Assembly (NCBI GenBank): GCA_025174535.1
Contig: JALBUN010000045.1
Span: 3,038,001 to 3,102,000 of the forward strand
Origin: Cantharellus purpuraceus
Taxonomy: Eukaryota > Basidiomycota > Agaricomycetes > Cantharellales > Hydnaceae
DNA length: 64,000 nucleotides
Direction: 5' to 3'
Part shown: one piece after another, positions 9,926 through 36,736 of the stretch
How the letters are laid out: each line of letters opens with the position of its first letter
Position numbering within the stretch: position 1 is the stretch's first letter
Notes under the pieces: generated by a model
Seen by the model: the letters and a program-made list of their open reading frames with translations, nothing else
What the model was told of the DNA's origin: nothing
Database searches by the model: none
Made by a program: the position numbers and the translations under genes

Positions 9926-10201
9926 GAACTGGATGACAACTCCACCCCTCCGCTTGGCCCTATCTACTCACTATCACAAAAAGAGCTATTGGCCCTCCAA
10001 ACATTCATAGATGAGAACTTGGCCATGGGCTTCATCCACCCATCCCTATCTCCTCATGGAGCTCCGGTCCTATTTGTCTGCAAAAAGGATGGATCACTCC
10101 ATCTATGCGTCGACTTCCATGGACTCAACAAAATCACCAAGAAAGACCGATACCCGATACCCCACACCGCGGACCTACTCGAGAGTCCTCGAAAGGCTAA
10201 G
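9926..10201 (+). pseudogene. Element C Pol, part 2: RT fingers
   Basis: The frame carries the chromoviral RT N-terminus: [20 protein letters not shown], then [36 protein letters not shown] and [10 protein letters not shown]. It is interrupted at 10202 by element E exactly after the CTAAG duplicated at the far side (18317-18321). The continuation IYSKIDLRHAYHLVRI is found there. Confidence 0.92.
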
Positions 10202-10764
10202 ACGCTTATTCAGAAATACAACAAATACATATGTACAACCTATTTTCCTCAAATTTTATACAATACACTTCAATTCAAACTTATTTTCATATTTCAACAT
10301 GATTCTCAAATTTTACACAATATACTAGATTAAAACATATTGTGATATTTTGGCATAATTCTCAAAAATAATTCTTTTTTCCCCATTTAGTGGTGGCAAC
10401 TCTCTTGAAGGAACATCCAAATATCATTGATTCTTTCTTATACAATACTTGTAACATAATTTGAACTATCTTTAGTCCCCACCTGGTATTTGTATATCTA
10501 AATACCCTATATAATACCAATTATATTAATACATACATTCCTATTATATCCATGTAAATGATTATGTTCATCTCAACCAAATATCTCATCTTTTAAAGTT
10601 TATTAAAATATAGAATATATGTTTATATTTATGAAAATTTCACACATCCGAAATCTTTTAAGATATCCAAATTGTAACTCCCTGGCTTTATGTATCATTG
10701 AAATCCTGATGTATATCTCCTATACATCAGAATATTGTATACTGACATGATTCCGAACAAGCGT
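10202..10764 (+). repeat. Element E left terminal repeat R
   Basis: The 563-bp repeat starts ACGCTTATTCAGAA and ends TTCCGAACAAGCGT, so its own ends are an imperfect 14-bp inverted repeat. It is identical by eye to 17755-18316 except for one extra T in a T-run at about 10373. The left flank is CTAAG and the right flank is CTAGG. No coding frame is seen in it. Confidence 0.9.
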
Positions 10765-10844
10765 CTAGGGAGGTCATTTTAAAAACAAAAATCATCACCT
10801 TATATCATCAACAAGCTTCTTTCTCCATAGATTTAGACATGCCA

Positions 10845-11342
10845 TTATGAATTCTTATCTTCATTGGTATGTCTGGACACTGTCCAACACAGCAAAGCCA
10901 ATAGTATACCAATACTAGTTATGTAGATCATGTGCACTGTACGGCCAAGATATAGTTTCTGCCTATTTATATCTGGGCCTGGCTGTCTAACAAACGCCTG
11001 ATTCACATGTGTGGTTATAATGTGTGCATATCCAGAGGTTGGATCAGAACCACTTACAAATCTGTTGGTTTTATTCAGAAAACCTACAAATTCTGCTACA
11101 AAAATAGGATCACTTTCATTATAGCCTATTTTATCAGGTTGTAGACCAAGAAATACATATTTGATATGAGGATACTTTGAAAGCTGGAACACTTCACCTT
11201 CAGCATATGAACGGTCCAGATACTGCCCAAAGGGGTACCAGTCACACGTTGTACAATTAGCTAGCCGGTGTGGATTGCTGTGAAAAGGCTTTTGGTAAAA
11301 CTGTTGATTGAGACGCTGTTTCAGTAATGGATCAGTCTCCAT
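10845..11342 (-). CDS. Element E tail-anchored membrane protein, unknown function
   Basis: Intact 165-residue frame. The first 135 residues are soluble-looking with a CTTCDWYPF motif near residues 31-39 and several aromatic residues. A single hydrophobic segment follows at about residues 136-155 (VHMIYITSIGILLALLCW) with a short charged tail, so it is probably a C-terminally anchored membrane protein with the N-terminal domain on the other side. It lies 55 bp downstream of the transposase stop in the same orientation and may be co-transcribed with it. I do not recognise the family. A membrane protein is unexpected in a DNA transposon. Confidence 0.7.
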   Translation of the reverse strand: METDPLLKQRLNQQFYQKPFHSNPHRLANCTTCDWYPFGQYLDRSYAEGEVFQLSKYPHIKYVFLGLQPDKIGYNESDPIFVAEFVGFLNKTNRFVSGSDPTSGYAHIITTHVNQAFVRQPGPDINRQKLYLGRTVHMIYITSIGILLALLCWTVSRHTNEDKNS

Positions 11343-11397
11343 AGATACCTATAAGTATAAAACATACAAATATTCAATTTTATTCTGGGAAAAAAAT

Positions 11398-12873
11398 TTA
11401 CAGTTGAATGTAGCATAGGTATACAATAATACTATTACTATTGTCTTTCCAATACTCTTTAATACATTCTGTAGATTTAAAGCTTGATGTTGCTTCCCAA
11501 GTTTTCTCTGCATAACATTTCCATTTAACTAAATATTCTACGTACTTTCCTTTTTCTTTGCCTTATTATTTGTTCTACTTCATTTTCAGTCTCATAATGC
11601 ATCTCCACATCATACTCACATCTTTCTAATAGTCGTTGTTGAGATTGAGTCATCTTGTCAACATCTTCTGCTCTTTCCAGTAATGATCTGGGTGGCTCAA
11701 TATCTGGGTCCTCTTCCTCAGGGTAATCAAAATATTGTTCACACCATTTTTCATGATAAGGAGATGGTTTGATCTTACGTAGTTCTACAAATTTCTTAAT
11801 ATTCCATAATAGACATGCTACCTTTAATTCCAGATTAAAGACAGCAGGATTTGTAGTTCTAATAGATCTCTTATTATCAAATTTTTCAAACAATATTGCA
11901 AACCCTCCAAAGAATGCTTCTACTGTTGAACGAAAGGCACCAAACTTCTTATTAAAAATCTTTTCTTCAGGTTTAAGTTCAACATTTTTTGGCTTACGAA
12001 AAGGATAAAAGAAGTTCTTAGGCTTTAATATACTTGCCTTTACTACTTCTGGAATAGCAGATGGATAAGCTCCATCAAAGCCTATCTGATCAATCTTATC
12101 TATTTTATTCCATACAGCCATCTCTACAAACATTTTTGCATCAGGATTTAGTTTACATGCCAATGAAGGTGAGGTGAATAGAACCATTTGATTAATGTCA
12201 ATGCATACTTGAGTACGAAATCCTGCCTTTTTAAATTTATGTGAGTACCCCTCTTCAGATGCCGATCCAATCAAAATTCCTCTTGTATCATGACCATCAA
12301 GAAGTAATGTCACTGATTCCATTTTTGGAGGATTCTTTATAAGAGCTGATAATATCCTTATTATTATATTTGAGAACATTGTACGCAGTGAATCAGTAAC
12401 TTGTTTATCTAGATCAAAGTTAAGATGATGCAGACGACCATAAAATTCCTTATGAACATCATAAAAGCTACTTGATGGCATGAAATTTCCTATTTCTTCA
12501 TAAGTAGGACCTTTGAGTAGATGATATAGTACTAACAAGCCTTTTTCTATCTCTCTATAAGGTGTAGAATGTTCTTCAACTGAAAACAATACCACAAGAA
12601 AGAAAAATACTGGTATTGGTCCAAGCTTGTTATATACTACTTTTTTACATCATCCATGTCATTCATATCTTTTAGTTTTGTTCTATGATATTTTTTGTGT
12701 TCTAAGACAGGCCACTTTGTGTATAGAAAATTCCAATGATTGTCCATCAACTTATTATATGCTCTGTCCCTTTGATCATTCCACATTTTAAGTTGCTGAA
12801 GCTCTTTTTCTTCTTTCTCTTTTTGCTCTTTCTCTTTTTGCTCCTTTGTGCGTTTTTGCTGGTCTGAGGGCAT
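11398..12873 (-). CDS. Element E DDE transposase with C-terminal chromodomain (two frame breaks in A-runs)
   Basis: Three frames on one strand make one protein of about 490 residues. The N-terminal 78 codons (12873-12640) encode a Lys/Glu-rich helix, then KWPVLEHKKYHRTKL. Reading must slip by -1 in a GTAAAAAAG run (12640-12648) to enter VVYNKLGPIPVFFLVVLFS and the catalytic core: LLLDGHDTRG (first Asp), IGFDGAYP (second Asp) and FRSTVEAFFGGF (Glu), the pattern of DDE_Tnp_4/Harbinger-like transposases. Near 11550 another A-run shift leads into VEQIIRQRK, KYVEYLVKWKCY, TWEATSS and IKEYW, a good chromodomain, ending at a stop at 11398. The 5-bp target duplication does not fit Harbinger (3 bp). 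Its neighbour starts divergently 96 bp upstream. The frame breaks may be real, programmed, or sequencing errors. Confidence 0.75.
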
Positions 12874-12969
12874 TTTGACTAAGATACTCTTATATTACAG
12901 TAAAACAAAAATATGTTCATTTTTTTGATAATTGAATTTTAAATTAAATAATATTTATTCTATGAAGCT

Positions 12970-13620
12970 ATGTTGTCTGTCTCTAAGCAAGTTGTTAGTA
13001 AAATATCTACTGTCTTTGTTAAAAAAGAACCAGAGGATGATGAAAATCCTTTGTATATAGACTCTGACACCATCTACATAAAATTCAGATTAAGAAATCC
13101 CCCAAAGGACTTCTTTCCAGCTGGATTGGTTTCTCAGGAAAGAGATAAAACACCAGAAGCACTGTACAATAAGATGATTGAAAAGGGCAATGAAATAAGT
13201 AATTCAACCTGGATTCAACAAAATCATTGTATGTCAAGTCTGCAAACCATGCAACAGGATAATCTGCCTAGTTGTAATATTTCTATTGCTAGAGAAACTG
13301 GCAAGAAGTGTGATATTTCTATTGCTGGGGAAACTTGTAAGAACTGTGATGTGTATAACAATTTGGTTACGTCAATGGTTGTTGCATTGAAACAACAGCA
13401 GAGAGTTTTCAAGAAAAGTAAAATCACAATCTATGGTATGATCATAACTAAGGATGGTAGGTTAAAATTATATGAAACCACCAATAACAATCAGGGTGTT
13501 TCAATTGTTGTATATCCTTCCTCTGGATACAGCATAGAAGCTCAGTTTGAAGAGTGTTCTAATGCTATTGACATTATATTCCAAAGTATAAGAAATCAGA
13601 TGTTCAAAGAATCCTCATAA
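12970..13620 (+). CDS. Element E 216-residue protein, unknown function
   Basis: Intact plus-strand frame from ATG 12970, divergent from the transposase across 96 bp that must hold both promoters. The N-terminus is Lys/Glu-rich (FVKKEPEDDENP), followed by IDSDTIYIKFRLRNPPKDFF. The centre has an internal repeat, CNISIARETGKK then CDISIAGETCKN, with regularly placed Cys. The C-terminal third looks like an alpha/beta domain (KITIYGMIITKDGRLKLYET). I recognise no family. It lacks a signal peptide or membrane segment, so a nuclear or cytoplasmic role is likely. Confidence 0.65.
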   Translation: MLSVSKQVVSKISTVFVKKEPEDDENPLYIDSDTIYIKFRLRNPPKDFFPAGLVSQERDKTPEALYNKMIEKGNEISNSTWIQQNHCMSSLQTMQQDNLPSCNISIARETGKKCDISIAGETCKNCDVYNNLVTSMVVALKQQQRVFKKSKITIYGMIITKDGRLKLYETTNNNQGVSIVVYPSSGYSIEAQFEECSNAIDIIFQSIRNQMFKESS

Positions 13621-13638
13621 GGAGTTGATTTAAAAGTC

Positions 13639-13861
13639 TTAGTTTCTACACTCACAACATTTTTCATCTATTTTCACTTGGATAATTTCAAGATTTGAAC
13701 TTTTGTTCACACAACAATAAGTACCATTAGTATCATGATGAGTATTTTTGAATGTTCAGAGCTCTTAGGACATTTAATATCCTTACAATCTGTAACTACA
13801 GATGTAGTAGTTATATGATTGCACTTCCAAGTAATTTGAATTTTTCACTATCACCACACAT
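13639..13861 (-). pseudogene. Element E small cysteine-rich ORF broken at two A-runs
   Basis: Three minus-strand frames follow one another: MCGDSEKFK, then ITWKCNHITTTSVVTDCKD and IKCPKSSEHS, then HHDTNGTYCCVNKSS and VKIDEKCCECRN with a stop at 13639. Each change is a -1 step inside an AAAAA run. Together they give a peptide of about 73 residues with at least eight Cys, including two CC pairs. No signal sequence is visible, and the start is uncertain because the region upstream is AT-rich. It is either decayed or has two one-base errors. Confidence 0.45.
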
Positions 13862-13912
13862 GCCTTCATTTGAGTGAATAAAAATATTGCATATTCACTT
13901 ATCTGATTTATC

Positions 13913-14092
13913 TTATACTTGTTGTAGTGAACGTAGTGGTAGCTGAATCTCATTGTCATCATAAGTAACAGTTATTAGCAAAGTGTCATCTGACAAAGTG
14001 CCAGTTACTAATGTAACAATACCTGTCACTGTCATTTGTGTTCTTGCATTGATAAATGATACCTTATCACCAATCTCAGGTATATTCAACAT
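13913..14092 (-). CDS. Element E 59-residue small protein
   Basis: ATG at 14092 starts an uninterrupted 59-codon frame ending with TAA at 13913. It begins MLNIPEIGDKVSFINART and continues with alternating hydrophobic beta-strand-like segments (TGIVTLVTGT, DTLLITVTYDD, EIQLPLRSL). The GDKVSF start and strand pattern suggest a small five-stranded barrel of KOW/Tudor/SH3 type; this is inference from pattern only. It is encoded on the same strand as its neighbours on both sides with gaps of about 40-50 bp, the tight packing seen across this element. Confidence 0.55.
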   Translation of the reverse strand: MLNIPEIGDKVSFINARTQMTVTGIVTLVTGTLSDDTLLITVTYDDNEIQLPLRSLQQV

Positions 14093-14130
14093 GGTGTCTC
14101 TGGTTATTATATATTAATTTTAAAAACTCA

Positions 14131-14840
14131 TTATTTCTCATCTAATTTCCTATCAAGTATATCTACAAACTTCTTAAATGCTTCAAAACACTGTAGAACA
14201 TTCTTTCTACTATTAATATGTTTCATACCTGTTACTGTTACAGGGAAACAACACCATACATTTGTTATCACTTCTGAAAACAACCCTTCTGTGATAGCAT
14301 GATCAAGCTCTCTTGTAACAGTTACTAGGTAAAACTGGGGGACTTTTCTCGATGTTTGAATGCAAGGTATTGTCATTTCCTCTAAAGCACTTTTTCCCTT
14401 ATTCTTCCTAATCTTGTTATTCAATTGAAAAACTGCTATAGCTCTTGCTATAATCTGCGGTTCTGGATTTATCTGATTTGTGTTCTCATGTGTAAAAAAC
14501 AGTATCTCATTATCATTTTTTATAACACACATCTCTATAACATTTCTTGTTATATTTCCCCTCACATTCATAGGGATTTTATTATGAGTGATGATTAATC
14601 TTTCATCCTTGTCATATTTCATAAGAAAGAGCACTTCTCTGGTAAAATCATTAACCAATGTAGATCCTTCCCTGACTCTAGTAGATCTATCTAAGTATGT
14701 AAAAAATTTTCTTGAAGACTCCTTTAAACATTTCACATCATCTTTTTGTAATCAAAACTGAGGATCTCATCATCAATATCTAAAGTAATATCTCTAAAAT
14801 CTGTCTCAAAAAACTGTTTAGTCCATTGTGTGTCAACCAT
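14131..14840 (-). CDS. Element E protein of about 236 residues, unknown function
   Basis: The main frame (14131-14736) encodes about 200 residues of mixed alpha/beta type (DFTREVLFLMKYDKDERLII, NVIEMCVIKNDNEILFF, PQFYLVTVTRELDHAI, CFEAFKKFVDILDRKLDEK). It has no good ATG at its head. An ATG at 14840 opens a 34-codon frame (MVDTQWTKQFFETDF) that meets it with a -1 step in an AAAAA run just before GATGATGTG (about 14741-14746). The step could be a missing A. A roughly 50-bp GTGAAA..TAG intron starting at 14736 is an alternative. No membrane segment or known motif is seen. Confidence 0.55.
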
Positions 14841-15019
14841 TATACCATAATCCCAAAGATCACGAGAACTCCAATCATTGCACTTCTTATCTTTACCCAT
14901 GATGTCAATAAAGAAGGATATATAAAATTTATTTCATTTTTTACTAGATATGTGCATAGTTCTGAAGAGCAGAATGGTGAATCAAATCAGAATGTTGTAG
15001 TAAACATCCATATTTTTAT

Positions 15020-15202
15020 CTAATATTTATAAATTGAATTATATATATTTTCTAAAGTTGTCAATAGCCAGATGCATGCACTCGTTCTGAATACTACAAC
15101 AAAGTCCCATACAGAATTCCCTGTCCTTTCATCTATCATTCTTCTACCAGTTCCTTGTTTCCTATCTTGCCAGTCTTTCATTCCAAATTCTTTGCTGCAT
15201 AG
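15020..15202 (-). pseudogene. Element E ORF, C-terminal fragment truncated by an insertion
   Basis: About 60 codons read openly to a stop at 15020: CSKEFGMKDWQDRKQGTGRR, then ERTGNSVWDFVVVF and SACIWLLTTLENIYN. The composition is that of real coding sequence and it ends in a hydrophobic stretch. Its beginning is cut at about 15205, where unrelated sequence starts. On the far side of that sequence (16063) the coiled-coil gene ends abruptly, so this may be the original C-terminus of the coiled-coil protein. The join is inference. Confidence 0.5.
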
Positions 15203-15205
15203 CTA

Positions 15206-16060
15206 AATAGGTGTACCAGCCGATTGGATATTATCATATCATGGTAATGACGTCGGATGGAAGGTCACCTTGTCAGGAGCAGTTTGATCACATTATCAAA
15301 GGACAGCCTTTTGGCTGTGAGGGTTGATAATGATGCACTTACTGAGCAGACAGTAGGTGAGACTTTGCAGCGGCATGGTGTACCAGATAATTGAATCGTT
15401 GTCCTTGAGCAGCCCGATGATGTTACTCAGTGTCGGTTCGCTTAAGGAATAGATCCTAGCAAACAGACGGTGTGTAACGCAGTTGTTCAGCACTCCAAAG
15501 ATCAATCAGGGTGAGGGGTAAGTAACAGGGAAGTGGGATAGTGCTCTGTGGTTGGATGGGGATGGGAGCTAAAGGTCGGTCCCAATGGCTGATCGTGCTC
15601 TGTGACTGGATGACAATGTGGAGCCCAGTTGGAAGGTACGCGAAAGCTGGTTTCAGGAGAAGCAACCTCTCGGTGGCGGAGGGAAATCTGATCGTTGAAC
15701 CAAGGTGTTTTACCTCAGTGTAGAGATGATGGATTGTGATGTAGAGTGTAGACTTAGAGCTTGGACTTTGACTTTAGAGCGTTGGCTGAAAACTTGTTTT
15801 TTGATTCCAAAGGCGAAAACTAGCGCCCTTTATATACAAATTCCCAGGGCACAACGACACAATATGAGGAGCAAATGATGCAAGAAATGCTGATCAAGCC
15901 AGCTGATGAAGCGTGTGAAGTTGAGCTACTAAAGGGGAAATCATGGAGAAATGAAACGACAGATAGGGACATCATTAGACTGCTCATGGACAGCCATTCA
16001 CTCCAAGGTGACCTTGTCAGAAGCATGGAATGCCTTGTATCCTACGTCTTCGGAGGCTTA
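15206..16060. mobile_element. Foreign segment inside element E containing a partial U element
   Basis: Positions 15431 to about 15975 match element U: TGTCGGTTCGCTTAAGG, then the CACTCCAAAGATCAATCAGG and TTTCAGGAGAAGCAACCTCT blocks, but only the first 40 percent of it. Outside it, 15206-15430 and 15976-16060 match nothing else that I see in the window. Both contain AAGGTSACCTTGTCAGRAGCA-like words (15254 and 16008). The ends TGTACCAGCC and GGCTTACA could be LTR-like termini, but I find no target duplication. It separates the C-terminal fragment at 15020-15202 from the coiled-coil gene. Confidence 0.5.
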
Positions 16061-16062
16061 CA

Positions 16063-17220
16063 TTACTGGGTTCTCCCTCTACATCTTTTTCTTGAACTAG
16101 GAATTTGAGATTGATCAGAGTCTGAATCAGATTGATCAGAGTCTGAATCAGATTGATCAGAGTCTGAATCAGATTGATCAGAGTCTGAATCAGATTGATC
16201 AGAGTCTGAATCAGATCGTTCCTTAGACCTTTTTTCTTGATGCCTTGAACTAGGAGTTTGAGATCGTTCGTTAGACCTTTTTTCTTGATGCCTTGAACCT
16301 TGAGTCATTCCTTGCTTCCATGTTTGAAAATTAATCCTATTACCATCTACATCATATGATGACATTTCATTCTTCCTAGTATATATTGTAGATAGTTTTC
16401 TAGGCTCACCATTTATGAATAATTCCATTCTATTTAGTCTACAAGACTGATCTGAGTCTATAAGTATATAGTCTACACCTCTTTTCACTATCTTAAATGT
16501 CACCTTTCTGGTACCATTTTCCTGTAACCTTGTTACCTCCTGTTCTTGTTTTCCAGCCCAGTGATTCATATCAGATTTCCAGTCAACAATCTCAGATATT
16601 ATTGCTTTATATTTATCACCCTGTTTCTGAAGTTTATTAATGTCTGTTCCAAGTTCCACTACAGTATCATCTGTTTCTACAATCCACTCATGCACTTCAG
16701 ATTTCCATTCCACAATGTCTGATATTGTTGCAATACATCTATTAACCTGTTTCTGAAGTTTATGAATATCTGTTCTATGGTCCAATATACGATTCTCTGC
16801 ATTATGTGTATTGACCTGTTGATGAATATCTGTTCCATGGTCTGATATTGTGGCAACACACCTATTAACCTGTCTCTGAAGTTTATGAATAACTGTTCCA
16901 AATCCTGATACAACATCATTCATTTCACTCACCCGTTTATCTAAATTCTCTTTCCTGTATGTCAAAGTAGTTATAATTGTATTTTTTTCCTCAACCTGTT
17001 TCTTAAGCACCTGAATTTCCTGACTCTGGGAATTAACCTGTTGTTCAAGTATAGTGATCTGCCTATCCTTTTCACTCATCCAAGACTTGACATTTATAAG
17101 ATCAGATATTAATTCATCTTTTACTTCCATTTGACTTGCCATAGCTTTTATCAGTGCATCATTGTCACTTATCCAGCCTTTGATTGCTTTTATATCTTCA
17201 AAGATTTGTGGCATTTTCAA
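16063..17220 (-). CDS. Element E coiled-coil protein with Ser/Asp repeat tail
   Basis: Intact 385-residue frame from ATG 17220. Residues 1-230 are long heptad-type coiled coil with near repeats of IHKLQRQVNRCVATISD and WKSEVHEWIVETDD (each about 40 residues, at least three copies). A compact segment follows (RKVTFKIVKRGVDYILIDSD, MELFINGEPRKLSTIY). The tail has RHQEKRS repeats and five copies of a seven-residue SDSDSDQ unit, then a basic end. The stop at 16063 is at the border of inserted DNA, so the natural C-terminus may be missing. It resembles a structural or fibre-like protein; that is inference. The gene is divergent from the two-exon gene 140 bp upstream. Confidence 0.65.
   Translation of the reverse strand: MKMPQIFEDIKAIKGWISDNDALIKAMASQMEVKDELISDLINVKSWMSEKDRQITILEQQVNSQSQEIQVLKKQVEEKNTIITTLTYRKENLDKRVSEMNDVVSGFGTVIHKLQRQVNRCVATISDHGTDIHQQVNTHNAENRILDHRTDIHKLQKQVNRCIATISDIVEWKSEVHEWIVETDDTVVELGTDINKLQKQGDKYKAIISEIVDWKSDMNHWAGKQEQEVTRLQENGTRKVTFKIVKRGVDYILIDSDQSCRLNRMELFINGEPRKLSTIYTRKNEMSSYDVDGNRINFQTWKQGMTQGSRHQEKRSNERSQTPSSRHQEKRSKERSDSDSDQSDSDSDQSDSDSDQSDSDSDQSDSDSDQSQIPSSRKRCRGRTQ
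16109..16215. repeat. 21-bp tandem repeat in the coiled-coil gene
   Basis: Five near-perfect copies of a 21-bp unit (GATTGATCAGAGTCTGAATCA) encode the acidic Ser/Asp/Gln repeat on the minus strand. The perfect array implies recent expansion. Confidence 0.9.
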
Positions 17221-17360
17221 ATCCCTCTCTGCTTATAAAACAGAAATGAAAAAACATAATAATCATTTTTTCTGAACATTTGATATTTTGTATAGGCAGT
17301 AGATATATACATCTTGCTTTCTTAATAAAATGATTATTATGTTTTTATGTTATAAGCATT

Positions 17361-17687
17361 ATGAAGATGCTCTCTTTTATGCTTCAATGCAAGATAGAGT
17401 TTGATAGAAGAGTTAATGATTGGTATATATCTCGGATAGGATCCCTCCATGATTTGTTTCTGAGGTAAGTTCCTTTATAAATATCAAGGTTCCAATCACT
17501 GACTTTATACAGATGTACTGATGGCACACTTCTGGAACAGAAATTAACAGAGTTATATACTAGTATGGAGCAGGATCATTATTTTCCACCACTTTGGATG
17601 GAAAATCTGATGGTATTGCACCCTAAAGTACGAGGGATAGTCATACAGTCTTATGTTAGAACAAGATTATCTACCACTATGCCCTAA
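17361..17687 (+). CDS. Element E two-exon gene, 92-residue protein
   Basis: Exon 1 is 17361-17464 (MKMLSFMLQCKIEFDRRVND). The intron 17465-17512 is 48 bp with GTAAGT donor, CACTGAC branch-like site and TACAG acceptor. Exon 2 is 17513-17687 (CTDGTLLEQKLTELYTS, then FPPLWMENLMVLHPKVRGIV, TMP, stop). Splicing joins the exons in frame; without it the frame stops early. The protein has no known motif or membrane span and looks like a small helical domain. It is the last gene before the right repeat and is divergent from the coiled-coil gene. It shows that element E genes use spliceosomal introns of fungal size. Confidence 0.65.
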
Positions 17688-17754
17688 CTAAGTTACTTTG
17701 TTTTAAAAATAGCTTCACTGCATTAAAGGTGTTTGTTTCCAAGACTTTCCTAAG

Positions 17755-18316
17755 ACGCTTATTCAGAAATACAACAAATACATATGTACAACCTATTTTC
17801 CTCAAATTTTATACAATACACTTCAATTCAAACTTATTTTCATATTTCAACATGATTCTCAAATTTTACACAATATACTAGATTAAAACATATTGTGATA
17901 TTTTGGCATAATTCTCAAAAATAATTCTTTTTCCCCATTTAGTGGTGGCAACTCTCTTGAAGGAACATCCAAATATCATTGATTCTTTCTTATACAATAC
18001 TTGTAACATAATTTGAACTATCTTTAGTCCCCACCTGGTATTTGTATATCTAAATACCCTATATAATACCAATTATATTAATACATACATTCCTATTATA
18101 TCCATGTAAATGATTATGTTCATCTCAACCAAATATCTCATCTTTTAAAGTTTATTAAAATATAGAATATATGTTTATATTTATGAAAATTTCACACATC
18201 CGAAATCTTTTAAGATATCCAAATTGTAACTCCCTGGCTTTATGTATCATTGAAATCCTGATGTATATCTCCTATACATCAGAATATTGTATACTGACAT
18301 GATTCCGAACAAGCGT
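17755..18316 (+). repeat. Element E right terminal repeat R
   Basis: The 562-bp copy of R, same orientation as 10202-10764, differs from it by one T in a homopolymer. It is flanked on both sides by CTAAG (17750-17754 and 18317-18321). Near-identity means that the two copies were duplicated very recently or kept identical by recombination, unlike the decayed element around them. Confidence 0.9.
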
Positions 18317-18321
18317 CTAAG

Positions 18322-21849: not shown

Positions 21850-22276
21850 TGTCGGTTCACTTAAGGAATAGATCCTATAAGCCTGTGCGCAACGGTCCTA
21901 GCAAACAGACGGTGTGTAACGCAGTTGTTCAGCACTCCAAAGATCAATCAGGGCGAGGGGTAAGTAACAGGGAAGTGGGATAGTGCTCTGTGGTTGGATG
22001 GGGATGGGAGCTAAAGGTTGGTCCCGATGGCTGATCGTGCTCTGTGACTGGATGACAATGCGGAGCCCGGTGACGAGCCAGGACGCATCAAGGACGCATA
22101 TCGAACCACTCTGACAGTCCAACTCCACCAGCGTCTTTTCGTATCAACTTTTAAATAGCGCCGCAACTCCCTATCCACCTCAGTCTCTAATTCGAGCCAT
22201 CGATCGTCACTCGTGTTTCATCGCCATCGATCATTATCAGCCTTCTATTCACACCGATCCTTTCATCATCATTCAC

Positions 22277-22711
22277 ATGGCTTCCCATTCTATTCCCCTC
22301 TCCAACATCACTTCTAATAATACGTCACACTGGTCTCTGGACACAGAGGACTATCAAAAATACGCCGAGCTCCACGGGCATGTTAAGCCACCTCCACGTG
22401 TCAAAATACTTCCAAAACTCTTTCAACGTCCAAGATCCCCACCATGTCTCTCTTATGCCATTGGCGATCCCATATTCTTTCACAATTCCATTGAACCATA
22501 TACATTCCTCGACATTTCACCTCTATATCGTAACACGGATAGAAGAGTCGAACGTGAGGTAGAATTTCAGTCACCATCGCTGACCTATCCTCCCACTTCA
22601 ATCCGACTCAGGTTACATCGTGTCAGGCAAAGGGACCGAATACTCTTGGAACGGGATACCATATGGAGACGGATCACTAAGACAATAAGGAGTATTTGTT
22701 GTGGATGCTGA
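22277..22711 (+). CDS. ORF in inner U copy, 144 residues, unknown function
   Basis: MASHSIPLSNITSNNTSHWS opens an intact frame rich in Pro, Arg and Ser with no known motif, ending TIRSICCGC. A TATA-like TTTTAAATAGC lies about 120 bp upstream. The inverted copy at 24042-24476 encodes the same protein with only a few substitutions, and both are open. Coding status is uncertain; identity may just reflect the youth of the copies. Confidence 0.4.
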   Translation: MASHSIPLSNITSNNTSHWSLDTEDYQKYAELHGHVKPPPRVKILPKLFQRPRSPPCLSYAIGDPIFFHNSIEPYTFLDISPLYRNTDRRVEREVEFQSPSLTYPPTSIRLRLHRVRQRDRILLERDTIWRRITKTIRSICCGC

Positions 22712-24041
22712 CTGAAGTCCTCATGTGACTCAGGGTCAATTAACCTTCGGAGCCATAGGGAAGATGGTATTGGTGGACATTTCTATTGTTCTTTTATATG
22801 ACTCACCCCTGTTTCATCTTTTAATTCATTCATACACGACTTACTCATCCTTGTTCTATTTTTGGTTCTTTTATTACTCATCACCCCCTATTCTTACAAA
22901 GATTACCCCTATCTGTCGTTTCATTTCTCCATGATTACTCCCTTTAGTAGTTCAACTTCACATGCTTCGTCAGCTGGCTTGATCAGCATTTCTTGCATCA
23001 TATCGCATCATTTGCTCCTCATATTGTGTCGTTGTGCCCTGGGGATTTGTATATAAAAAGGGCGCTAGTTTTCGCCTTTGGAGGAAATCAACAAGTTTTC
23101 AGCCCACGCTCTAAAGTCAAAGTCCACGCTCTAAGTCTACGCTCTACGCTCTACATCACAATCCATCATCTCTACACTGAGGTAAAACACCTTAATTCAA
23201 CAATCAGATTTCCCTCCGCCACCGAGAGGTTGATTCTCCTGAAACCAGCTTTCGCGTACCTCCCAACCGGGCTCCGCATTGTCATCCAGTCACAGAGCAC
23301 GATCAGCCATCGGGACCGACCTTTTGCTCCCATCCTCATCCAACCACAGAGCACTATCCCACTTCCCTGTTACGTACCCCTCGCCCTGATTGATCTTTGG
23401 AGTGCTGAACAACTGCGTTACACACCGTCTGCTTGCTAGGACCGTTGCGCACAGGCTTATAGGATCTATTCCTTAAGCGAACCGACACCGGTTAGGAGGT
23501 ACGTGAAAGCTGGTTTCAGGAGAAGCAACCTCTTGGTGGCGGAGGGAAATCTGATCGTTGAACCAAGGTGTTTTACCTCAGTGTAGAGATGATGGATTGT
23601 GATGTAGAGCGTAGAGCGTAGACTTAGAGCTTGGACTTTGACTTTAGAGCGTTGGCTGAAAACTTGTTGATTGATTCCAAAGGCAAAAACTAGCACCCTT
23701 TTATATACAAATCCCCAGGGCACAACACAATATGAGGAGCAAATGATGCGATATGATGCAAGAAATGCTGATCAAGCCAGCTGACGAAGCATGTGAAGTT
23801 GAACTACTAATGGGGAAATCAGGGAGAAATGAAATGACAGATAGGGGTAATCTTTGTAAGAATAGGGGGTGATGAGTAATAAAAGAACCAAAAATAGAAC
23901 AAGGATGAGTAAGTCGTGTATGAATGAATTAAAAGATGAAACAGGGGTGAGTCATATAAAAGAACAATAGAAACGTCCACCAATACCATCTTCCCTACGG
24001 CTCTGAAGGTTAATTGACCCTGAGTCACATGAGGACTTCAG

Positions 24042-30640: not shown

Positions 30641-33600
30641 CTAGTGGCGAGAGATACCCCGATCGCGTCGATCCCAATCGCGAAGGAGGTCGGGAGCGTT
30701 GCGAAGGTTCTTTCGCGGGAGCCACTCGTCATATGATGAGTCGTATCCGATGAAACGCGTGAGGAGCTCCTGGACACGCCGGCCATTACGGGCCTTTCGC
30801 CATCGTTCACCGATGATGGACTCGACCTCGAATTCTGGGAGTTGCGTGAAATCAGCGCGTTCGAGAGATCTGAGAGGTCGTGAACCGAAGGAAGGGGGTG
30901 AGGAGGAGTAGAGCTCGAGGTGAGCGATGTTAAGGACAGGGTGGAGCCCGTATGACGCAGGCATGCGAAGGCGATAGGTAGCCGGCCCTAATTTTTGTAT
31001 GATATCAAAGGGGCCATCGTATTTCATTTGGAGCTTCTTACCTAGGCCTTTCTGAGCATGCAATAGACTGAGGGAATGGGGATTGATGAGAACGCGATCG
31101 CCAACGTCGAATTCTTGAGCCAGACGACCGGTGTTGAAATTCTTTTGCTGAGCAACCTGCGCAAATTGCAGGGCTTCTCTAGCCTGAGATCGGTAAGTAG
31201 CTAATTCACTTAGGAAGTCCATAGCTTTCGTACTTTCAACTTCATTGGCAGGGGACTTGATTAAATCAACGTGATCGACCGATCCAACTGGTCGCGGGGC
31301 CGGCGGGCTGGAAGGCCGGTGAACGCCGTGAGTAGATGAATGAATGTAGGAAGATGGAGTGCGTGGATGGTAGCCATACAGTAGAAATGCCGGCGCGAAT
31401 CCAGTCGCGGAGTGTGGGAGGTTATTGTAGGATAGAGCAAATGGAGAGAGGAGAGCCGCCCAGTTGTCGCGCGTCGGGCTTACGTAAGAACGTAGCGCGG
31501 TTTCAAGCGTCTGGTTCAACACCTCAGTTTGACCATCTGCTTGAGGGTGATAGGCTGTAGTTAGAGCTCTTCTAGTATTTATTTGCTTGCATATCTCTTT
31601 CCAGAAGGTGCTGGTCCATCTGGGATCTCTGTCGGATATAATTTGTTTGGGAATTCCATATTTGGATAGCACATGTTCAAACAGTATCCGAGCAGTTCCC
31701 TCCTCATTAATAGTGCTTTGAGTAGGGACAAAGATGCCAAACTTTGTAAGTTTATCCACTATCACCAGGATGGAATCGTACCCATTGCTCTCGGGTAATT
31801 CCATAATGAAGTCCATGGTGATAACTTCAAAAGGATTTTCTGGAATAGGTATGGGCTGCAACAGTCCAATAGGTGCGTGTCGCCTTGGTTTGGCTTTCTG
31901 GCAAATATCACAGCTTACAACAAACTTCTTGACATCTCTACTCATTCTAGGCCAATAGAAGGTAGAAGCCAGTTTGTTGTACGTTTTATGATAACCCGCA
32001 TGAGCTCCTTCAGTGATTTCATCATGAATTTCACTTAGAAGATTAGATTGCTCAGCCTTGGGTACACATAGCCTGTAATTGCCATTCCAATCTTCAAAGT
32101 AAAGCAATCCATCCTCATTTTCAAAAAAGAGTGGATGCTTCGGACTGATCAAATTAGACTCCTGTCGTAATTCAGATCTGACCCTTTTGAAGTAAGGATC
32201 TTTGGCATACGCATCAACTATTTTCTGAATCTCTTCCTGAGCAAGGCTAGAGACTAGATTATAGCCTTTGGCTGTCACGTATGGAATGGTGAAATCTTCT
32301 TCCAGGCTGGTATTGACTTGGATGGAAGAAGCATGCACGTTCAGTGGAATTCTCTGGTTCTCTTCTTCATATGCAGCCATTAACATTAAAGTTCTGGCCT
32401 CAAAGTGAGGAGAGATATCAGAATAAAAATCCACAAGTGGATCCTGTTCCGAGTCCAGGATAGTAGGAATGGAGTCATCAGAAGAAGGCCCATCTTGATA
32501 TGGAACATTCCTTCTGAGTCTGGAAATAGGATCTACATTAGAGTGAACCCGTCCTGCTCGGTGTACGATTTTTAATTCAGGGTATGCAGCAAATACAGTT
32601 CCCCAAGTTAATAACCGCCGATTAACATTTTGGTAGGTCCGACTCCAGATGAGGGCTGCATGGTCTGTGATGGCTACTACTTTCTCCCCTTCAATGTAGG
32701 GTTGAAATTTGATAAGACCGTCTCGTAATGCAAGCGCCTCCCTTTCTGTAGGAGAGTAATTCCTTTCAGCTGGTTTCAAGGTGCGAGACCAGTAAGCAAT
32801 GACTCGTTCTACTGAAACCGTAGTGTTTTCAAAGTCTTTATCCCAAGTACCTGGCTTAGGGAGAGTTTCATCTTTTAACACAGGAATCACCAATTGTGGT
32901 ACAGGTAATCCTTTGTCATAAGCTGATTTGAGTTTCTCATACCCTTTGGTACCTTTGAGATCTCTGATTTTGAGAGGTTGAATCTGCTGAAGTATAGCAG
33001 CGATTCCGACATCACATGCATCAGAGTAGACTCTATATCCGAGACCAGGAATGGCATACGCTCTGACTGGCGCACTGACAAGGGCATTTTTAGCCAAATC
33101 AAAGGCTTCTTGTTGAGTATTGCCCCATTCCCAAGTTGAATTCTTTTTGAGCAATTCAAACAAGGGAGCTACAATCCATGCATAGAATGGTATATATGAG
33201 GAGAAGTATACCACCATTCCGAGGAAGATTTGTAGGTCATGCACATTCTTTGGTTCTGCCAATTCCAGTATAGCATCTATCTTCTCCTTGTGAGTTGATA
33301 GACCTAACCGTGATACCTTTTGTCCTAACAGTAGTAATGACTGGTAGGCCAAATGGCACTTAGCAGGAGATAAGGTGATTCCAGACTTTTCTATAGCTCC
33401 GAACACTTTGTCTAGATGATCCAAGTGTTCTTTGAATGTCTTGGAATATATGACAATATCATCAATATAGACCAGGGCAAACACCCATAGAAAAGGTGCT
33501 AGGACACCTTGCATCACTCTTTGAAAGACTGCAGGTCCATTCCGATACCCAAAGGGCATCCGTTTGAACTGATACAGTCCTCTATGAGTTCTGAATGCAG

Positions 33601-36600
33601 TTTTTTCTTTGGCACTGTCCGACATTTGCAGCTGTGTGAAACCCGCTAATGCATCCAAGGTGGATAACCAACGAGATCCAGTGAGTGCCTGCAAAATGGA
33701 ATCTTGTCTTGGCAAGGGAAATTCATCCGGGACAGCAATCTCATTGAGTTTCCTATAGTCTATACACATTCTTGGTTTCCCATTACGATAGGCTATAAGT
33801 GCTGGAAAACCCCAAGGACTTTTGGATGGTTCAATGACTCCAAGACTGAGCCAAGCATCCATTTGCTTGTCAATGACTTCCCTTTTGGCAGGTGAGGCAT
33901 TATAAGGAGGTAGTGAAATTTCTTTGGCCTCAGGCCTGAGATTGATTTCAACTTTTGCATCATAATTGCCAAGTCTGCCATCAAGACCAAATGCGTCTTT
34001 ATGTGCCAGAACTGTATCTTGGAGAGCCTTCCTATTGGCATCATTGAGCTCTGGTGAGAAGTCAATTTCATCCAACAGTTGGTTTTCAGGAACATCCTCA
34101 GGGGGAATTTCCTGAGCCTTAGGTCCTCCTTGTACCACCTCTCCATCTGATTCAAGAGAGGCAACAGTAGGTACCGCACCAGTCTCAAAGTTCTGTTGAG
34201 CAAGAGCTTTTATGAGTCTGGCGTGAGAGAGACAAGTCTCTAATTGAGTCTGGTTCAAATTAGAAGTCCGATCCAGCCAATTGGAAGGATTTCTAGCATG
34301 ACCCAGAAGTTGTCCTTGATGTATAGTAACTGGTTGTGATGAAAAATTGCTAACATGTAGGCACGGGTTATTCCGAGATACAATTGCATCTGAGATGCCA
34401 TAGAAATCTTCAGGCCCATGATTGGAGTGAAGCACTTTTTCCACATAAACTTCATTACTATTCCCAGGGAAATAGATAGAAGCAGGAATTAGAGAAGCAG
34501 TTTCAGGAGGAATTGTGACGGGATGTAAGGCCCTAACACTTGAATCAGAAATGCGTGCTCTAATCCGTTTCAGAGATTTCTTAATACGTCTATGAGCCTT
34601 GAACTTTGCAGTTAGAGATGCAAGGTCAGGAAGGGCTCTTATTTTAAAGGTGTGACCATTCTCATCCAATAAGGGTGAGCTTACTGAGTTCTCAATCTTG
34701 GCTTTCCGTCCAGTATTACCAAACATAAGATAGCTATCTGAGCCTTCTCTTATAAGTGAGATAGAGTACTGATCAGCAAAATCATTCCCAAGAATGACAG
34801 GGGTAGTCATGCCTTTGACCACATAAGCTTCAACTTCAATCTGAACTGGTCCAGAGTCAGAGTCAAAGTAAATGGGCACCGTAACGTATCCAGAAATTTT
34901 GGATGTGCCAGTAACTTGTATCAAGTTAATTTTCTGACCTGTTTTGATCTTAGGAGGATTCTCCATAGAGCAAAGAGCTTTCTGAGAGATAAGGGTTATG
35001 TCTGAACCAGAATCAGCTACAAGGGTAGTTTGATTCTTTCCATATTCTCCCAGCCAAACATTAGTAGTGGTTGCAGAAGATCCAAGGAAGGCACAGCCTG
35101 CTGGTCTGGACATGGAACGCTTGAGTTTAATCAAGGAGTTAGGAGCCCAACTAGTAAGCTTAGAATTCCTTAGGAAAGCAGCTACATGTTTGGAATCTTT
35201 CATTAACCTTCTCCTCTCTTGACGAGATTTAGGAGTGAATGTCTCAGAAAAAGAGTTTTCCAGAGACAAAGGCTCAGAAGATTTTTCTCTATTAGGTATG
35301 GATCCCCCCAGTCGGGACATACTTTCCAGCAAGCTCATGGCTGGTTTAGCAAGTTGACAATGTGCCTCTGTATCCTGAGCAGATTCCTGTTGATCCGATG
35401 AAGGTTCTTCAGGGATATTCTCAGTTGCAACATTATTAACATGAGCATTGTCTGAACTTAAATCCACTTCTGATTCATGAAGTGATTCAAGGTACATATC
35501 CTCATAGGCAAGGTCTGCATTAGCTTCTTCATTAGAAACCGTGTAACGTGTATGGGCAGAGCGAGATGCTGAACTGGCATGTTTGCACTCATTATCCCAA
35601 TGCTTGTTACTGCCACAATGCCTGCAAGGTCTAGCTCCTTTGGATTCAGGTGTGGAATTTTTAGACACATTAGAATCATCCCGAGGGAATTTTGGAGGAT
35701 TCAATTTGGATGACCATCCAACCAGATGAGCTCTAGCATCTCTAAAAGATCTGTTTGAGTCAAACCTAGGTTTGGTTTGATGCAAAGAATTTTCCAAATT
35801 TCTAATACGTCTTTCCAGGTTGTCTCCTGAAGAGAAAGGAGCATGTGACAATGATTCCTCGTGATACTTGATAGCAGTTTGGAATTCCACTGCAGATGAA
35901 CACCTGTGAGCATCAATGACTGTGTGCCAATATGGTGGAGCACCATTCATGATTTCCAATATAAGCTCTGAGTCTGACAGCTTGCTGACCAGTCTCAATA
36001 GCTCTGACTTTCTAACGTAATACTCACTAGGAGTCTCATTAGTAAAGCCAGGCTCTCTGAAAGTAGCACGAGTTGCTCTAGCTTTCTGCCTATCCAACCA
36101 GGCTCTGTTCATATAGTATGAACCAATGACTTCTCTGATGGACTTCCAGTCCTCAGTTGCTTCTTGGCGATATGACAATGGTAAGGAGAAAAACCATCTC
36201 TCAGCTCCTTTACGCAACCTCAAAGGGATAATTTGTCCCAATTGCTTGAAGACCATAGGAGATCGCTGAGCCAAATGATTTACTTTCAATATCCATTGAG
36301 CCAAACTGTCAGGGTTTCCATCCCACTCAGGGACTAAGTCCTGACGCAACTTGTTATCAAAGTAAGCTTCCAGCTTGCTCTGAGTCACTGGAGCGTCTAA
36401 TCCGAGATTAGGATTTCTCTGATCAAGATCCCCCCAGTCTGGACTATGACCGTAACCTCCACCATCACCTCCATCAGGAGGACCTGAGCCTCCATGCCTA
36501 CCCAGAGGGGGAGGATTACTCCTTCCACTTCTATGTGGCAATGATGGTCTAGGCAAAAATGGATTAGGTGTATGAGGGGGACCAGATGATCCGTCATCAT

Positions 36601-36736
36601 CAGGAGGTTCTCCTCCAGGAGGTGGAGCACCTCCTCCAGAAGCTCCATAAGTTCCGTGAGGAACCCTAATGGATTCTGGAATGCCTAAAGTACCCCTGCT
36701 CTGAACTTGAGGAGGAGTATAGAACATTTCTTCCAA
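30641..36736 (-). CDS. Element A Gag-Pol polyprotein with chromodomain
   Basis: 2031 residues in one frame. Pro/Gly-rich N-terminus; Gag capsid about 120-310 (LVPEWDGNPDSLAQWI; GAERWFFSLPLSYRQEA); zinc knuckle CRHCGSNKHWDNEC at about 369; aspartic protease LVADSGSDITLIS at about 571; RT about 970-1150 with FRTHRGLYQFKRMPFGYRNG and catalytic VYIDDIVIYS at about 1088; RNase H about 1230-1375 (VYSDACDVGIAAIL; TDHAALIWSRTYQ); integrase HHCC about 1570-1620 and core D, D, E in TMDFIMELP, SDRDPRWTS and ADGQTEVLNQ; chromodomain about 1965-2020 (FEVESIIGERWRK; RFIGYDSSYDEWLP). All catalytic residues are present. The frame is open upstream of the first ATG and overlaps the preceding ORF in the -1 direction. 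Confidence 0.95.
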   Translation of the reverse strand: MEEMFYTPPQVQSRGTLGIPESIRVPHGTYGASGGGAPPPGGEPPDDDGSSGPPHTPNPFLPRPSLPHRSGRSNPPPLGRHGGSGPPDGGDGGGYGHSPDWGDLDQRNPNLGLDAPVTQSKLEAYFDNKLRQDLVPEWDGNPDSLAQWILKVNHLAQRSPMVFKQLGQIIPLRLRKGAERWFFSLPLSYRQEATEDWKSIREVIGSYYMNRAWLDRQKARATRATFREPGFTNETPSEYYVRKSELLRLVSKLSDSELILEIMNGAPPYWHTVIDAHRCSSAVEFQTAIKYHEESLSHAPFSSGDNLERRIRNLENSLHQTKPRFDSNRSFRDARAHLVGWSSKLNPPKFPRDDSNVSKNSTPESKGARPCRHCGSNKHWDNECKHASSASRSAHTRYTVSNEEANADLAYEDMYLESLHESEVDLSSDNAHVNNVATENIPEEPSSDQQESAQDTEAHCQLAKPAMSLLESMSRLGGSIPNREKSSEPLSLENSFSETFTPKSRQERRRLMKDSKHVAAFLRNSKLTSWAPNSLIKLKRSMSRPAGCAFLGSSATTTNVWLGEYGKNQTTLVADSGSDITLISQKALCSMENPPKIKTGQKINLIQVTGTSKISGYVTVPIYFDSDSGPVQIEVEAYVVKGMTTPVILGNDFADQYSISLIREGSDSYLMFGNTGRKAKIENSVSSPLLDENGHTFKIRALPDLASLTAKFKAHRRIKKSLKRIRARISDSSVRALHPVTIPPETASLIPASIYFPGNSNEVYVEKVLHSNHGPEDFYGISDAIVSRNNPCLHVSNFSSQPVTIHQGQLLGHARNPSNWLDRTSNLNQTQLETCLSHARLIKALAQQNFETGAVPTVASLESDGEVVQGGPKAQEIPPEDVPENQLLDEIDFSPELNDANRKALQDTVLAHKDAFGLDGRLGNYDAKVEINLRPEAKEISLPPYNASPAKREVIDKQMDAWLSLGVIEPSKSPWGFPALIAYRNGKPRMCIDYRKLNEIAVPDEFPLPRQDSILQALTGSRWLSTLDALAGFTQLQMSDSAKEKTAFRTHRGLYQFKRMPFGYRNGPAVFQRVMQGVLAPFLWVFALVYIDDIVIYSKTFKEHLDHLDKVFGAIEKSGITLSPAKCHLAYQSLLLLGQKVSRLGLSTHKEKIDAILELAEPKNVHDLQIFLGMVVYFSSYIPFYAWIVAPLFELLKKNSTWEWGNTQQEAFDLAKNALVSAPVRAYAIPGLGYRVYSDACDVGIAAILQQIQPLKIRDLKGTKGYEKLKSAYDKGLPVPQLVIPVLKDETLPKPGTWDKDFENTTVSVERVIAYWSRTLKPAERNYSPTEREALALRDGLIKFQPYIEGEKVVAITDHAALIWSRTYQNVNRRLLTWGTVFAAYPELKIVHRAGRVHSNVDPISRLRRNVPYQDGPSSDDSIPTILDSEQDPLVDFYSDISPHFEARTLMLMAAYEEENQRIPLNVHASSIQVNTSLEEDFTIPYVTAKGYNLVSSLAQEEIQKIVDAYAKDPYFKRVRSELRQESNLISPKHPLFFENEDGLLYFEDWNGNYRLCVPKAEQSNLLSEIHDEITEGAHAGYHKTYNKLASTFYWPRMSRDVKKFVVSCDICQKAKPRRHAPIGLLQPIPIPENPFEVITMDFIMELPESNGYDSILVIVDKLTKFGIFVPTQSTINEEGTARILFEHVLSKYGIPKQIISDRDPRWTSTFWKEICKQINTRRALTTAYHPQADGQTEVLNQTLETALRSYVSPTRDNWAALLSPFALSYNNLPHSATGFAPAFLLYGYHPRTPSSYIHSSTHGVHRPSSPPAPRPVGSVDHVDLIKSPANEVESTKAMDFLSELATYRSQAREALQFAQVAQQKNFNTGRLAQEFDVGDRVLINPHSLSLLHAQKGLGKKLQMKYDGPFDIIQKLGPATYRLRMPASYGLHPVLNIAHLELYSSSPPSFGSRPLRSLERADFTQLPEFEVESIIGERWRKARNGRRVQELLTRFIGYDSSYDEWLPRKNLRNAPDLLRDWDRRDRGISRH

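Follow-up and report, generated by a model that had tools for sequence, protein, structure and literature searches.

How does a transposon that moves as DNA come to be bounded by long direct repeats that are nearly identical within a copy? In long terminal repeat (LTR) retrotransposons, the terminal direct repeats are alike within a copy and unlike between copies, and lone repeats and tandem forms occur as well. A 64,000-nucleotide stretch of the Cantharellus purpuraceus genome (C45:3038001-3102000; hereafter the window) contains an 8.1-kb element of similar outline, in which two direct copies of a repeat, R (R1 on the left, R2 on the right), surround a 7.0-kb interior that encodes a DDE transposase. 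We searched the genome (40.15 Mb, 50 contigs) for further copies and compared their repeats. On this evidence we propose, with a rough probability of 0.45, that the element is a PIF/Harbinger (PHIS-type) DDE transposon with an LTR-like R-interior-R structure and ends resembling miniature inverted-repeat transposable elements (MITEs), and that it is copied through a stage with a single R.

The R1 and R2 of the window element differ by a single T in a homopolymer. A first-pass annotation of the window had recognized this pair, at lengths of 563 and 562 bp; each repeat proves to be one base longer at either end (565 and 564 bp; Table 1). Each R has inverted ends of its own, with the end motif GACGCTTRTTC. 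The element lies within a Gypsy reverse transcriptase gene, and an uninterrupted Gypsy copy (locus L028; 92% identity over 296 ungapped columns) provides the empty site, with a single TAA. The perfect 5-bp duplication, CTAAG, proposed by the first-pass annotation is replaced by a 3-bp one, TAA, as the other copies confirm (see below).

Both the element and its repeat are abundant. Pattern searches that tolerated at most two mismatches found 625 left ends of R in the genome, along with 61 R1-interior and 62 interior-R2 junctions, while the reversed-pattern control for the R end and the controls for the junctions gave 0 matches; at least two of the five weakest R1-junction matches are an R beside a host repeat, not an element. 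The junctions form 54 ordered same-strand pairs within 14 kb, on many contigs, 53 of which are spaced 6.0-7.3 kb and one 12.4 kb. From these junction and R-end counts, we put the number of elements at about 60 and that of lone R ends at roughly 500. Each copy has the R-interior-R layout with fixed inner junctions, and the prediction that independent copies would share both R ends and the content between them is borne out by the 54 pairs and by the interiors compared in 22 copies, with 3-bp duplications in place of the 5-bp ones foreseen. A search for an R-less interior-interior junction returned two matches with three mismatches each, both being already listed interior-R2 junctions, and no others. 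R is itself a MITE-like unit, a small transposon in its own right that stands alone roughly 500 times and also bounds a far larger element.

Tandem and nested forms are also present. The segment C45:1741965-1758192 is a tandem array, R-interior-R-interior-R, with TTA at both outer sides, and contig C44 (19,130 bp) carries three tandem R's up to the contig end. C44 terminates inside its array, and the assembly may lack or have collapsed longer arrays or circles. A copy in C23 is inserted within another R, with an ATA duplication.

We read 27 of the 54 paired copies at the sequence level, where the repeats may hold homopolymer assembly errors. C37 (R2 truncated) and C44 (tandem, R2 truncated) were left out, and R matches shorter than 300 bp were dropped; the older copies L081 and L082, considered as a possible clock, have no clean R pair in the stretches read, and the R2 of C45:165377 (L052) lies outside the stretch read. 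With the ends set as GACGC..GCGTC, the flanking 3-mers are identical in 24 of these 27 complete copies, and a match over four bases occurs in none. The matching 3-mers are of nine kinds (TAA and TTA, 7 each; TGA, TTT and TAT, 2 each; TTG, ATA, CTA and AAA, 1 each); the mismatched copies are C17a, C3 and C1d. Lone R's are likewise flanked by matching 3-bp duplications in 28 of 32 cases, a set without L003, which nearly duplicates L002, and without the lone R's of L015, L016 and L025. Among the 52 matching sites, C precedes the duplication in 33, G follows it in 34 and the duplication itself is TNA in 31, the strict form C|TNA|G being found in 13. The existence of sites that lack the flanking C or G establishes a duplication of three bases. 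A 5-bp CTNAG duplication was considered and rejected, as 10 of the 24 matching copies lack the C that it needs.

The central observation concerns the pairing of the repeats. Within a copy, R1 and R2 are separated by a median of 1 and a mean of 2.3 substitutions, against a mean of 10.6 for R1 and R2 of different copies (27 copies). When partners were shuffled 100,000 times, the lowest sum of differences was 166 and the observed sum of 63 was never reached. Base 8 of the terminal inverted repeat (TIR), read from the junction listings, agrees between the two R's in all 20 copies checked, of which nine do not belong to the 27 (chance 8e-5). Across 19 copies, R1 is correlated far more closely with R2, 7 kb away, than with the adjacent quarter of the interior (Mantel r of 0.94 vs 0.40). 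Divergence between copies is 1.86% in R1 and 0.40% in the first 3640 interior bases (20 copies, 190 pairs), the step being located at the R border, and the interior is equally uniform in its noncoding (0.13-0.44%) and coding (0.28-0.48%) parts; a first stretch in which flank and R are mixed was set aside. We attribute the greater diversity of the R's to the exchange of segments with other R's. The R pair behaves as LTRs do, and the two repeats of a copy look as though they derive from a single one at its birth. Of the three copies whose duplications do not match, two (C3 and C1d) also have unlike R's, as expected of recombinants.

Within the left R, about 100 bases (window positions ~10242-10341) are without a segregating site among 20 R1's, and 100-base stretches further to the right have a diversity of ~2%. 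Judging by this pattern, the invariant stretch could possibly be bound by the transposase or be functional in some other way.

The small differences that do separate R1 from R2 provide a clock. Repeats that were identical at insertion and undisturbed since should differ by about twice the number of private changes in the copy. For this comparison we set aside C3, C1d, C17a and C24; the counts are low, and singletons give no more than a bound on the age. From 35 interior singletons in 22 copies, 0.49 R1-R2 substitutions are expected per pair, and 0.52 private substitutions per pair are seen (23 pairs), within a mean total of 1.13 (0.95 without C23). With moderate confidence, private R1-R2 divergence matches an LTR-like clock that starts from identity at insertion. 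The R's of elements are also not a random sample of lone R's, as indicated by TIR allele A, which is present in 15 of 20 element copies and in 11 of the 61 lone R's that fall within the first 100 of the 625 listed places (p 6e-6).

A copying cycle that would yield such pairs can be outlined. The transposase encoded in the interior would act on the outermost R ends, joining them to a target resembling C|TNA|G. New copies would descend from a single-R stage, most simply an R-interior circle formed by recombination between two R's, and R would be duplicated on integration, with replicative transposition of R from the circle placing the backbone between two identical direct R's (a cointegrate) and generating the 3-bp duplication. 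Lone R's would have two sources, recombination between R's and independent movement of R; the latter fits six identical lone R's, each at a different site. Extended to its broadest form, this becomes a DNA-only cycle that mimics that of LTR retrotransposons, with a single-R circle, replicative integration of R, a newly identical R pair and a 3-bp duplication, in an architecture evolved independently in PHIS and Kolobok transposons; in that form we consider it doubtful.

Several observations weigh against copying through a single-R stage. Counting ties, R1 is closest to the R2 of its own copy in only 20 of the 27 copies, and uniquely so in 15, partly because several copies have one R type in common. 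In a tree of 20 pairs, R1 and R2 are placed together in a supported or identical group, apart from other pairs, in only eight cases; several pairs are of one and the same type, and the R1 and R2 of C3, C23, C36 and C45t do not group. The R's of C23 are unlike despite matching duplications, and the R1 of C24 is truncated and divergent (24 differences). Of the R1-R2 differences that remain, about half are variants present in other R's, which implies some exchange after insertion. The interior recombines too, with all four gametes in 32% of site pairs. Homopolymer run-length changes are found in 7 of 27 R2's, in none of 27 R1's and in 3 of 34 lone R's, these last having been found with the window's R and so being biased towards it. 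No circle or cointegrate was observed, and to our knowledge replicative transposition is not known for the PIF/Harbinger-PHIS superfamily, which is described as cut and paste. As to the run-length changes themselves, they affect one T/C homopolymer ~170 bases into the R2 of the window (17754-18317) and of L010, L011, L039, L037, L084 and L036, and perhaps reflect either assembly error far from unique flank or a genuine instability specific to R2. A shared R2-specific T deletion (alignment column 175), considered as proof that the pair is inherited as a unit, was rejected, as there are several different homopolymer changes instead.

The main rival is gene conversion: R1-interior-R2 would be moved whole by cut and paste, frequent conversion within a copy would keep its R's alike, and occasional conversion by other R's would diversify them. 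This is a real possibility. It requires no new transposition mechanism, it accommodates the R1-R2 differences that are variants of other R's, and it agrees with the R haplotypes being block mosaics in common with lone R's and with four-gamete site pairs reaching 55% in R, above the level in the interior. Against it, a rough reckoning from small numbers indicates that R could be randomised between copies with almost no half-converted pair only if local conversion were fast enough to deplete private differences below the level seen, and that level is near the one expected of repeats identical at insertion.

Another model, one of those put forward by the authors of KolobokP, an animal transposon discussed below, has a circle integrating into resident lone repeats (PMC9587614); applied here, a circular R-interior would integrate into lone R's and the outer duplications would date from the older lone R. 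The many lone R's with 3-bp duplications, the fixed inner junctions and the multimers would all follow from it. A single crossover between circle and resident R would nevertheless leave R1 unlike R2, as complementary mosaics, and such mosaics are rare, most pairs being near-identical; nor are element R's the random draw from lone R's that would be expected, given their TIR alleles. We therefore regard this model as unlikely, and the simple form of integration into R offered by the first-pass annotation is not sustained. An LTR retrotransposon or an artefact of assembly, to which the LTR-like pairing and several contig ends within or near elements might point, is very improbable: R is bounded by inverted ends and is also found singly between 3-bp duplications, the six interior open reading frames (ORFs) submitted to a Pfam scan contain no match to a reverse transcriptase domain at E-values up to 1, and the 54 junction pairs across many contigs and the empty site speak against an artefact. 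The neighbouring reverse transcriptase is that of the interrupted Gypsy element.

As the first-pass annotation had concluded, a DDE transposase is present; it lies on the minus strand, is related to DDE_Tnp_4 and is split over two frames in the window copy. Of 22 other copies examined, 4 have both pieces joined in a single open frame of 456 codons. DDE_Tnp_4 matches the window's piece with an E-value of 3.7e-4, under the curated cut-off, and the element's transposase with one of 6.5e-5 (23.0 bits, just under the 24.8 cut-off). All 15 aligned family members, which include 14 relatives 38-51% identical to the element's protein, match the domain, with a best E-value of 1.2e-15. In a structure search, the transposase gave no match at an E-value of 0.001, the best being Mu transposase and retroviral integrase at 0.02-0.1. 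A DDE_Tnp_4-type transposase, a 3-bp duplication and short inverted ends are the marks of PHIS or PIF/Harbinger elements, and all are found here. The transposase search of the genome returned 95 matches, 34 of them spanning residues 2-356. A chromodomain is carried by 11 of the 15 aligned family members; its out-of-frame remnant in the element possibly reflects loss, an intron or frameshifting.

The interior encodes several other ORFs on both strands, as had been seen. The 165-residue protein is probably, from its sequence, anchored in a membrane at its C-terminus; one exception among the 22 copies lacks the test motif, and no homologue was found at an E-value of 0.001. The frame of the 216-residue protein has 222 codons in 21 copies and 210 in one. 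Compared with the older copy L082, the ratio of nonsynonymous to synonymous substitution (Ka/Ks) is 0.20 over 135 codons of the 165-residue protein (0.55 over its whole length, where the end of L082 differs) and 0.45 over 124 codons of the 216-residue protein; for the transposase it is 0.87, a value of little weight since L082 is damaged. Given their open frames across copies and these ratios, the 165- and 216-residue proteins look maintained, and it is a guess that they regulate or assist transposition. The gene at 14131-14736 has 274 bp missing in 16 of 22 copies, and modelling suggests a nuclease-like protein with a PD-(D/E)XK-like fold. In the 385-residue protein, the SDSDSDQ repeat corresponds to a 21-bp tandem repeat at 16108-16220 that varies from 1 to 16 units across 12 loci. 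Named protein relatives in Apophysomyces, Thamnidium, Linnemannia and Ephemerocybe, together with 15 hydrophobin matches in the genome (pieces of genes counted), indicate a fungal host, perhaps one of the Dikarya; no relatives in viral contigs were confirmed.

Table 1. Features of the element, by position in the window
Feature	Position	Strand	Remarks
Left target duplication, TAA	10198..10200		From flank comparison and empty site
R1, 565-bp direct repeat	10201..10765	+	Own inverted ends, GACGCTTATTC / GAACAAGCGTC
Interior	10766..17753		Start TAGGGAGG, end GACTTTCCTAA in copies examined
165-residue protein	10845..11342	-	No homologue found; same 167-codon open frame in 21/22 copies
Chromodomain remnant	11430..11561	-	Ends approximate; transposase frame not shared in 22/22 copies
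Transposase, main piece (DDE_Tnp_4)	11525..12595	-	Frameshifted from N-terminal part in window copy
Transposase, N-terminal part	12637..12873	-	In other frame in window copy
216-residue Cys-containing protein	12970..13620	+	Open in 22/22 copies
Protein with homologues outside the element	14131..14736	-	267-codon frame whole in 4/22 copies, not in window copy
Repeat sequence inside interior	15454..15968		Also at window 21896-23846
385-residue coiled-coil-like protein	16063..17220	-	Variable SDSDSDQ repeat near C-terminus
R2, 564-bp direct repeat	17754..18317	+	
Right target duplication, TAA	18318..18320		

Base composition sets the element apart from its surroundings, as the first-pass annotation had also noticed: GC content is 31-36% in most 1-kb bins of the element and 42-58% in bins clear of it. 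By itself this is no demonstration of acquisition from another lineage, the inference that had been drawn. The bin at 15001-16000 reaches 43.5%; the repeat sequence at 15454-15968 is the only GC-richer part of the element, and it recurs at window positions 21896-22071 and 22907-23846 with 90-97% identity. The start of the interior (10766-10778), TAGGGAGGTCATT, resembles a host repeat struck by R at two other loci (L097 and L098), which reads TAAGGAGGTCATT after a TAA target; the resemblance could be a coincidence or, possibly, a relic of the founding insertion. As regards TAA/TAG at the inner junction as a fossil target duplication, the older copy L082 likewise has TAG; three weaker R1-junction matches have TAA, and the two inspected are an R adjoining a host repeat, not an element. 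Elsewhere in the window, a 2031-codon Gypsy-type open frame at 30641-36736 on the minus strand contains reverse transcriptase, RNase H and integrase, with a C-terminal chromodomain match.

Among known systems, the closest in layout is KolobokP (Kojima and Bao 2022, PMC9587614), in which long terminal direct repeats (LTDRs) flank an interior (INT) as LTDR-INT-LTDR, with a Kolobok transposase, in seven animal phyla. According to the portions of that paper drawn on here, its direct repeats, of about 450 or 660 bp, are similar in length to R and likewise have short inverted ends of their own, lone repeats and multimers occur with target duplications, and a DDE transposase is encoded in the interior; circles, unequal crossover and LTDR excision feature in its discussion (PMC9587614). 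These portions contain no comparison of how alike the repeats are within and between copies. The element described here shares the long terminal direct repeats with inverted ends, the lone repeats and the multimers, and differs in its transposase and targets: KolobokP has a Kolobok transposase and TTAA-type targets (solo LTDRs have duplications of 3-5 bp), whereas the element of this fungus has DDE_Tnp_4 and 3-bp, TNA-like duplications in a C|TNA|G context. KolobokP also has a homing endonuclease of the His-Me finger kind (PMC9587614), to which none of the Pfam matches of the six scanned ORFs corresponds.

In its transposase and target, the element is instead similar to the NuwaII group of the PHIS superfamily (Han et al. 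2015, PMC4482050), which includes two basidiomycetes. Both have a PHIS-kind transposase and C|TNA|G sites, here as a preference; in the sections consulted, the authors leave undecided whether the NuwaII duplication is TNA or CTNAG (PMC4482050). NuwaII elements have ordinary inverted ends, mostly GG, a length of about 4.7 kb and a Myb/SANT protein, in contrast to the GA ends, 8.1 kb, direct terminal repeats and lack of a Myb/SANT Pfam match in the six scanned ORFs seen here (PMC4482050).

The similarity to LTR retrotransposons extends to the pattern of repeats within and between copies, the lone repeats and the tandems; R differs from an LTR in its long inverted ends and in its ability to stand alone with 3-bp duplications, and the scanned ORFs contain no reverse transcriptase domain. 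There is also a parallel to bacterial composite transposons and IS26-type translocatable units, in which two direct mobile units bracket other genes and a single-unit circle is a possible intermediate (PMC9587614). In those systems, the transposase is encoded in the flanking units, and here it is in the interior, the flanking R's being non-coding as far as seen. Our searches of the open-licence literature, with Repbase outside their range, found no two-repeat DDE layout for Harbinger/PHIS elements or for fungi, KolobokP being the only case noticed. The annotation's proposal of a new class of large DDE element is therefore upheld as to a DDE transposon with direct terminal repeats, and not as to an architecture wholly new (PMC9587614). 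The architecture is a known one, found here in a second transposase superfamily; what is new is the population evidence on how it is copied.

The description of KolobokP set it apart from all other DNA transposons, and the upkeep of its two-repeat architecture is left open in the parts of the account cited here (PMC9587614). Finding such an architecture again, in a different superfamily, suggests that the design is recurrent. The present family is both young and abundant, with 54 paired copies and interiors 0.4% apart (20 compared), so that the birth of its repeats can be tested by counting. For annotation, the family is a warning against taking every set of paired direct repeats with lone copies for LTRs, and a reminder that a MITE family may be the ends of a much larger element. 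If the proposed cycle is true, DNA transposition alone would achieve here what reverse transcription does for LTR retrotransposons.

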